A DNA stretch of 64,000 bases from assembly GCA_018857735.1 (NCBI GenBank), contig JABMCL010000813.1, positions 531,001-595,000 of the forward strand, in the 5' to 3' direction. Below the pieces are notes generated by a model. That model saw only the letters and a program-made list of their open reading frames with translations. It searched no databases and was not told the DNA's origin. Of the stretch, positions 2,676 to 8,900 are shown piece by piece (the first letter of the stretch is position 1; each line of letters begins with the position of its first letter). A program made the position numbers and the translations under genes. This stretch comes from Alviniconcha marisindica. Its lineage: Eukaryota > Mollusca > Gastropoda > Provannidae.

Positions 2676-2986
2676 GCCTCTTCATCTTTGGGGCCACCCT
2701 GCTGCGCACGCTGGGGGCCCGCAACGCATCGCGTGGGCTGCACACATCCTTTCTGGCCAACATCCTGCAGTGCCCCATGCACTTCTTTGACGTGACCCCC
2801 ACGGGGCGCATCGTCAATCGTTTCAGCAAGGACATGGACTCCATCGACGTGGTCGTGCCCCAGAACATTCACATGTTTATCATGTGCTTTCTGCACGTGA
2901 TCGGCACCATCCTGATCATCTCCATGGGGACGCCGCTCATTCTCTCTGTCATCTTCCCCCTTATGGTTCTCTATTACTTTGTACAG
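2676..2986 (+). CDS. ABCC1: ABCC1 alternative exon, copy A
   Basis: This 311-nt exon lies between acceptor CTGTTTTCACAG and donor GTACTT. It begins with two bases of a split codon and ends on a whole codon (Q). It encodes a TMD2 segment: a helix, the loop [19 protein letters not shown], then helices around [17 protein letters not shown] and [15 protein letters not shown]. The corresponding human MRP1 loop reads FFERTPSGNLVNRFSKELD. It is one of four homologous copies with identical length and phase. Its text is closest to copy D. Confidence 0.93.
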
Positions 2987-5900: not shown

Positions 5901-8900
5901 GGTGATCGCCTCAGCAAAACCTCAGTAGTGGTGATCGCCTCAGCAAAACCTCAGTAGTGGTGATCGCCTCAGCAAAACCTCAGAAGCGATGATCGAGACG
6001 AAGCAGCAAAGCCTCAGCAGGACTTTTCTGAATTCTTGTTCCTGGCACCTGTAACAGTTGTCAAGGATCTTTGCCTGTTCATTTCCTGTCCACTGTATGT
6101 TGCCTCGGTCGGCATTGCCTCGGTCAGCAAGTAACAGCTGCATTAATAGCTTGGGGCCTCCTGGCCTTCTTGGGCACTCTGTTTGGGTACCTGTGTTACT
6201 CGCTGTAGGGTTAGGAACTTGGGTTACAATCTGGTTGGATGACAGACTGTGTTGCTGTACTGTAGGCGCCCTTTCCTTCTCTGCGGCGCTGCTGCTGGCC
6301 TGGGGAAGTCGCCGAGCCTCCAAGCGTCTCCACCAGGGCATGCTGGTCACCATCGTCCGCCTGCCCCTGGCCTTCTTTGACACGACGCCCCTGGGCCGCG
6401 TCATGAATCGGTTCAGCAAGGACGTGGACGTGATTGATAGCGTGCTGTCCGGCAAGCTGTCCATGTGGTGCCGCTGTATGCTGCTAGTGGTGTCCACGGT
6501 TCTTGTGATTAGCATGTCCACGCCCATCTTTCTGGCTGTTGTTCTGCCGCTCAGTGTTTTCTACTTTTTTGTTCAGGTATTTGGCTCCACGGGTTGTTAG
6601 CCTAAACAGACAGTCGTGTATTGTCTCTGTGTGTGGCCGCGCCAACCGTAACAGCTTTGGGCAGGACTTCCACAGCTTTTCAAAGCTTTGTGTTCCCATG
6701 CACATCAATATTCATATCTGCTTTTCTTCCCCATGTATCCAAGAGTGTTTAAATGAAGTCAGTGCGTATACTTTATATCACTATCAACTGTCTGTTTAAC
6801 TTGGTGGAAGCTGTATCTGTAGATTCCTCTTGTCTTATTTGACTTGTAGTTCTTTCTGTAATCGGTGCTACCACTTCTAACATTGACCACAAATAAAATA
6901 AATGAAAGTCATTCACAGGGACTGCTTCTTCTCCTGAATGCATGCAACAGTTCATTTGACATGTAGTATTTGTTGCTGTGTGGATGAACTGGATTCCAGA
7001 TGTTGCTTTAGTAATTTTTCTTGATTGGCCCGTCATCAGACGTTGTGAGTAAACCGACTGTCAGTGAACGTCTTTAGTTCTTGATGTAAGTTTTGACTGT
7101 TGTAGTGTTAATTGTTCTCCTAGGTACATGCTGATCACAGTGTACATGTCTGTTTTTGTACATCCCTGTGCATTTTTTTCCAACGTGGTTATCAGTGCCT
7201 CCAGTGTGGTGTGTGTGTGCTTTGCTGCTTTGCAACATTTTTCTTTTACGTGTTGCTTCAGATTCTCAGTTGCTGGAAAAAGTTTATTCTTATAATTATT
7301 CTAAACGTGTTTTCCTTTCTTTTGTTTTCTTCTTTTTTGTGTGTGGTTTTGTTTGTTCTCTTGATTCTTTCCTTTTTTCTTCTTCTTTTTTCCCCTTTAT
7401 TTTTTCCGTCTTTAACACACACAAAAATAAAGTTCTGTTACCTTCAACCTTGCAAAACGCAGGCAGTCACTTCATTCTGAAGAAAATCATGTATATTTCA
7501 AATATATTTGTTATTAATTTTATTAGATTCCTTGTGAACCTTGATTTTGTTGAGCCTATTTGTGTATGTGTACATTTTGCTTGCATGAACCCTGCATGAA
7601 TCAATCCATCATTTTGTTACATTGGTTTTTCAACAGCAAGTGTCTGATTCACGCGAGAGGAGTGCGAGGCAGTGACAGATTAACTGGTGACAGGATTAAC
7701 TGAGCACTTGAGACAAGTTGCAGATTTGGGATGACACGGAACCGGTTGTGTGCAAGTGTCTGCCATGTTGGTGGCGCAGACATTGGATTTTCTGTTTGTG
7801 GCATGATGGATCGTATTTGCTGTCATACAGCACAAACCAATCCATCTGTGATAGCTTGATTCCTTTGTGTTTTCCATCCCCACAGGAGTGTTCATTTGGC
7901 TGGCAGTGATGCTGAAGGCGTTGGGGGGGCGTAAAGCATCCAGTGAGCTCCACGCCACCCTGCTCAACACTGTGTTCCGTCTTCCCACGATGTTCTTTGA
8001 CACCACCCCTATCGGGCGCATTGTCAATCGTTTCGGTAAAGACGTGGACACAGTTGATGTCAACATTCCCTCCAATGTGGAGATGTTCCTCGGCTGCTTG
8101 ATCAAAGTGATTGGTACCATTATCGTCATTACCATGACGACCCCCCTCATTCTGATAGCAGCAGTGCCCCTTGGTATCATCTACTTTTTGATCCAGGTAC
8201 AGTGGACCGACGGTGGTGATGACTTGGGAATGGAGTTTGGTAATAGCTGTGCTTCTGGTTTTTACCCTGTGGGGCATGCACAGTTCATGGTCAGTTTGTA
8301 GGGGCGCCTGTTCACTCGAGGTTTCATACACTCTGTACTCTTCAGCCGTGAAAGGGCTGTGGGAAAGTGACACCAGTTTCTGAACACTCTTGCTTGTGTC
8401 TGTCAACCTTCGTACAATCTCGTACTGGTTATCGGTTTTCTCATTGTTCTTGTTTTGTCTCTATTTGACTACCTTGTCAACTTCTGATGGTCCATGAGAA
8501 GACAATGACCTGTTGACGTCAATCTGACTCTCAAGTAGGTTTTCTCTGCTTTTGGGACATACTAGACAGAGCCTAACCTGGTACTAAACAGAAGTGAAAA
8601 ATGGATTCAGAACTAAACTTAGTACTCCGTGATCAAAATTTGCCTTCCAACTAAAAGAAAGAAAGAAAAAAAAGCTGCATAATACTGAACCTGTGTGTGG
8701 AAGTAAAGTGCATACTGACCACTGCATTGTACCTCTAACAGTACTAACCAAGGAACATGCTTGATGTTCTTGCATGGGTTTTGAAATTGGCAGTGAAGTT
8801 TGAACGTGGAATGCTTTTCTTCATGGCATGTAATGTGTAAATGTAACTGCTGCACATTGTTCAGTTGGGAATCACGGTGTTAAAATTGTACAGCTTTGCT

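Follow-up and report, generated by a model that had tools for sequence, protein, structure and literature searches.

In the present study, we address whether four equally long exons found in a stretch of 64,000 nucleotides of the Alviniconcha marisindica genome (hereafter, the window) are interchangeable versions of one exon, how the use of a single version could be secured, and what part of the encoded transporter it would change. The sequence analyses reported here make it very likely that a caenogastropod-like ABCC1/MRP1 gene carries four mutually exclusive exons in tandem at this locus, with predicted splicing.

Organization of the array and identity of the gene

The initial annotation had described four 311-nt exons (A to D) with a common phase and good splice sites, and its coordinates proved to be exact (Table 1). 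All four are preceded by AG and followed by GT. On entry, two bases finish a codon, while the exit follows a full codon, and the shared frame is open over 103 codons with stops in both other frames. According to the accessible part of PMC3228551, tandem mutually exclusive exons are recognized as homologous neighbours that agree in length and phases and have intact splice sites; the four copies agree with this description in length, phase, splice sites and homology.

The four peptides (103 aa each) represent the same piece of the second membrane domain (TMD2) of an ABCC1/MRP1 transporter, as had been proposed, and they matched nearly one stretch of PF00664 (ABC_membrane; profile 58-68 to 157-158; E 1.7e-15 to 1.5e-18). 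Their pairwise amino acid identity was 43-50%, except for the B-C pair (75%). When the whole window was searched with these peptides by tblastn, E values below 1e-20 were obtained at these four loci only, the next-best match having an E of 0.041 and the best match in the reversed-window control one of 1.8. Therefore, the four-exon array is far beyond chance. When positions 1-2675 were searched with the four exon peptides and two full-length snail proteins, neither a fifth copy nor an upstream constitutive exon was found. Searches for tRNA genes and for Rfam families at gathering scores gave no matches.

Table 1. Features of the MRP1-type locus, in window positions.
Feature	Position	Strand	Remarks
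Alternative exon A	2676-2986	+	311 nt, phase 1 in, phase 0 out
Tract near-identical to 6245-6438 (3' splice site and first 57 full codons)	4593-4786	+	Codon differences, flank alignment
Alternative exon B	4614-4924	+	311 nt, phase 1 in, phase 0 out
Alternative exon C	6266-6576	+	311 nt, phase 1 in, phase 0 out
Alternative exon D	7886-8196	+	311 nt, phase 1 in, phase 0 out
Intron from cluster to common acceptor; place of the docking site on the arthropod MRP1 model	8197-12908	+	4712 nt
First constitutive exon downstream, common acceptor for A-D	12909-13108	+	200 nt, starts R-F-Y-V in phase 0
Constitutive exon	13726-13852	+	
Constitutive exon	14525-14626	+	
Constitutive exon	15677-15823	+	
Constitutive exon	17245-17403	+	
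Constitutive exon	18118-18284	+	
Constitutive exon	18748-18942	+	
Last constitutive exon	19391-19502	+	Stop TGA

Eight exons downstream of the cluster complete TMD2 and the second nucleotide-binding domain (NBD2), and this exon model bears out the common acceptor postulated for all four copies. Splicing of D to these exons gave a product of 505 aa that matched solved MRP1 chains at about 1e-238, with 788-795 bits for MRP1 chains, 739-740 for ABCC3, 712-717 for ABCC2 and 543-549 for ABCC4. On this similarity the gene is assigned to the ABCC1/MRP1 type, ABCC1 being the nearest of the ABCC members over TMD2-NBD2. The TMD0, TMD1 and NBD1 expected of this type would lie upstream, beyond the window. 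The constitutive 402 aa were 93.5% identical to Littorina saxatilis, 88-90% to the Nucella and Babylonia models and 87% to Pomacea, values that by themselves point to a caenogastropod close to Littorina as the probable source of the window.

The existence of paralogues in the group, indicated by two MRP1-like models with arrays in Nucella lapillus (P0005 and P0008), could suggest that the copies are parts of separate or nested genes; unmerged haplotypes or another assembly artefact might also be considered. However, the window holds a single set of downstream exons, with no further ABC exon between the copies, the introns flanking B and C align over 21 nt only, and the copies are just 43-75% identical. 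Given the single exon set, the non-matching introns and the divergence of the copies, both explanations were rejected as hardly credible. The earlier reading of the locus as one MRP1-type gene with four alternative copies of one exon is thus maintained on the basis of a single downstream exon set and four homologous loci.

Reading frame, splice sites and the predicted use of a single copy

It had been argued from the exon length that only one copy can be used per transcript. This conclusion holds, but the argument from remainders was incomplete: n copies keep the downstream frame if n leaves remainder 1 on division by 3, and four copies qualify arithmetically. The second copy in any multi-copy transcript is, in addition, always read in another frame. 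When 16 exon combinations were modelled, only the four with a single copy reached the normal stop and the other 12 stopped early. In the tested stretch, a stop came at nt 333 or nt 450 in all 11 multi-copy combinations, and no later than nt 159 when every copy was skipped; the distance from the stop to the last junction was 1270 nt or more for the multi-copy combinations and 939 nt or more for skipping. A T as the last base of the upstream exon would make the junction codon of D a stop; the junction residue in relatives is Gly, which suggests a G at the end of that exon.

In the mechanism that we propose, one copy would be joined to the upstream exon, located outside the window, and to the acceptor at 12909, with A to D used in a mutually exclusive manner. 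Weak 5' splice sites lacking a G at +5 would need activation, and mis-spliced RNA would be removed by frame-triggered decay. One gene would in this way give at least four pumps differing only in this module. The 5' splice sites of the alternative exons all read CAG/GTA and none of the four has +5G, which is present at seven of the seven constitutive 5' splice sites downstream (Fisher p 0.003, calculated on copies that are not independent). The introns between the copies measure 1627, 1341 and 1309 nt, so the joining of copies is not hindered by short introns. Public models joining two or more copies in one protein do exist, such as Nucella P0005 and P0008, and they are read here as probable prediction errors because of the odd linker residues between the copies.

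Exclusivity could instead be imposed by docking-selector pairing between introns, rather than by weak splice sites together with trans-acting factors and decay of mis-spliced RNA. There is an insect precedent with the docking site downstream of the cluster (PMC6071210, in its accessible part), and the longest intron of the locus (4712 nt) occupies this place. Unlike the arthropod MRP1 genes for which such pairing is reported, the window gave no detectable complementarity: in none of the 10 intron pairs did a helix exceed the maximum of 20 shuffles, in a test of low power restricted to one species, ungapped helices, masked repeats and 836 nt of upstream intron. The best inverted blastn matches were also weak, the first pairing 2462-2482 with 12838-12858 (21 nt, 90%, E 0.03-0.13) and the second 7531-7556 with 10215-10239 (88%, E 0.11-0.39). 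Intron pairing is a serious possibility for this array, although we lean somewhat against it.

Age of the copies and comparable arrays in other animals

A tree was built from 63 exon peptides, comprising the four window copies and segments of 45 proteins hand-picked from 237 fetched; the alignment has few columns, as a tool warning pointed out, and 15 of the 60 inner branches are open. Exon A grouped with six caenogastropod rows (support 100/97). One Nucella copy joined B and C (100/96), which were sisters with support of only 95/73, and two Nucella copies joined D (100/98). In the Nucella lapillus model P0005 the types follow one another as A, B/C and D, the order seen in the window, and model P0008 contains the A and D types. 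P0005 has a single B/C-type copy in contrast to the two of the window, but this model may be incomplete. Since the three types are shared in the same order, the array is older than the split from Nucella, and the copies have been kept since before it. By the NG86 method, dN was 0.43-0.55 against a dS of 0.95-1.22 in five of the six copy pairs; the corresponding values for B-C were 0.16 and 0.25.

The last pair has the most relaxed ratio, as would be expected if only one or two copies (e.g., A and D) worked and the others were relics or rarely used. Moreover, among the 120 proteins listed, the representatives of Littorina, Pomacea and Babylonia carry A-type modules, and exon B used as bait retrieved nothing closer than 54% identity among the best 120 of 295 matches in a clustered protein database. 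In such a database further isoforms may hide behind one representative, so this result is not evidence of absence. Against this explanation, both B and C have an open frame and intact splice borders, and a Nucella copy belongs to their clade. We therefore consider it very unlikely and retain four usable copies as the preferred reading.

Exons B and C form a mosaic. Over the first 57 codons they differ at 8 of 171 nt (NG86 dS 0.044), compared with 43 of 138 nt over the last 46 codons (dS 0.64), and none of 2000 permutations gave an equally sharp break. The 21-nt flank before both exons is 95% identical, while the rest of the introns do not align. Both exons are equally far from the Nucella copy in either half (38/57 and 24/46). 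A gene conversion that took in the 3' splice site and the coupling-loop half is probable, being favoured over constraint because constraint alone would not lower dS. It must be noted that in the first 57 codons dN is about equal to dS (8 changes), so that constraint on the recent B/C divergence is an assumption.

Further copies upstream of position 1 had also been suggested. Exon A matches the A-type exon in the Littorina model at 78 of 103 positions, despite the constitutive identity of 93.5%, while the A-type exons of Littorina and Nucella share 89 of 103 residues with a constitutive identity of 88.1%. Exon A is thus probably not the one-to-one counterpart of the Littorina exon. Since A diverges more from Littorina than the constitutive part does, another A-type copy may lie beyond the window, but a faster evolution of A would explain this divergence as well; the suggestion has accordingly gained indirect support.

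The kind of arrangement found here has already been described in many animals, molluscs included, and the snail array is a further case. Mutually exclusive MRP1 exons of equal length are reported in the same gene of helminths, annelids and molluscs (Yue et al., 2017, RNA Biol 14:1399, as cited in the accessible parts of PMC7434440, PMC6071210 and PMC9741552), and the MRP1 exon duplications are said there to be multiple and independent in different phyla (PMC6071210). What is new with respect to the known arrangement is the B/C mosaic, the +5G contrast of the splice sites and the invariant LTC4-contact residue discussed below.

Among other molluscs, Nucella shares the types and their order and Mercenaria mercenaria shares the 3' border. 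Isoforms X1, X2, X3 and X5 of the latter (P0056, P0072, P0062 and P0054) vary in the same module, differing (in runs of more than two columns) only at 1060-1160, right before QRFY at 1161. Unlike the snail copies, these modules group with bivalve rows and lie outside the A, B/C and D clades. The parallel drawn with insects holds closely, though not in every detail. A multi-copy interchangeable exon is indeed present in Drosophila MRP (CG6214), whose variable exons were reported by Grailles et al. (2003) and whose cluster has eight exons (PMC6071210 and PMC9741552), as far as these sources are accessible. Three of six insect isoform sets (Tenebrio, Tribolium castaneum and Nasonia) vary from the same 5' edge as the window module, but they end about 30 aa before QRFY, and the other three are invariant here. 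The Tenebrio isoforms (P0076, P0080, P0081, P0084, P0095, P0097) also vary at about 266-291 and 544-592 and those of Tribolium castaneum (P0107, P0108, P0111, P0112, P0114-P0116) at about 266-291, which suggests further variable segments in beetle MRP1 beyond the module.

At least two tandem copies were carried by 12 of the 120 proteins listed when at least 85 of the 103 columns were demanded, and by 41 at a minimum of 56; these are gene models joining copies and show genomic arrays at best. They come from insects, snails, a scallop, amphioxus, a sea urchin and fishes. Five teleost models (P0045, P0049, P0055, P0064 and P0098), three of them named ABCC3-type, have two tandem module copies. Between species, copy 1 is 75-92% and copy 2 69-90% identical, values far above the 34-43% between copies 1 and 2, so that this pair would be old and conserved. 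A literature search found no paper on tandem exon duplication in fish ABCC3. In a sixth model, Xiphias P0090, the two copies are of another type and 99% identical to each other; this looks like an artefact.

The module within the transporter

The exchanged module corresponds to residues 1027-1129 of bovine MRP1, which we take to comprise most of TM13, the coupling loop, TM14 and TM15. Among A-D, 16 of the 33 loop positions are invariant, against 7 of the 25 positions preceding the loop and 11 of the 45 following it, and the coupling loop is thus more conserved than its flanking parts; the variation is located in the remainder of the helices. Table 1 of PMC8267652 gives 14 residues that line the LTC4 cavity in bovine MRP1. 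Only one of them lies inside the module, M1092 in TM14, and this position is Met in all four copies. Constitutive exons encode five TMD2 residues of the cavity; four of these are unchanged in the window and Y1242 is replaced by T.

A change of the substrate range by exon choice, as put forward in the initial annotation, is something that we can only infer. Exon choice may rather tune helix packing and coupling, since the sole module contact is invariant and the loop is the most conserved part; transport would then be adjusted and no known LTC4 contact swapped. As for functional differences between fly MRP isoforms, a single isoform (8a 4b) is named as used in the accessible part of PMC6185855, and PMC9161523 makes no mention of exon, isoform or splice.

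A wider and rather unlikely reading would take the TM13-loop-TM14-TM15 module of long MRPs as a recurrent slot for exon arrays, reaching vertebrates with the old teleost ABCC3 pair. In snails, gene conversion would keep the coupling-loop half of two copies alike while the TM14-TM15 half diverges, and exon choice would tune gating and coupling instead of the known LTC4 contacts. If true, it would mean a division of labour inside one exon.

Confirmation of the array by RNA would establish at least four MRP1 pumps from one gastropod gene, with consequences for the handling of toxicants and metals by marine molluscs and for counts of transporters by gene number. This array offers a clean case in which one module of a pump varies while the rest is fixed, and raises the question of how the same exon was duplicated repeatedly in animals.

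Minisatellites were observed in the introns of the MRP1 gene at 74-1204, 1928-2224, 5718-6041, 14648-15702 and 16207-16806 (the last by eye), with spacings of about 48, 99, 29 and 40 nt. Elsewhere in the window, two minus-strand ORFs (50658-51248 and 61181-61879) encode ankyrin repeats, and the first also a SOCS box; both are possibly parts of one ankyrin/SOCS-box gene on that strand.
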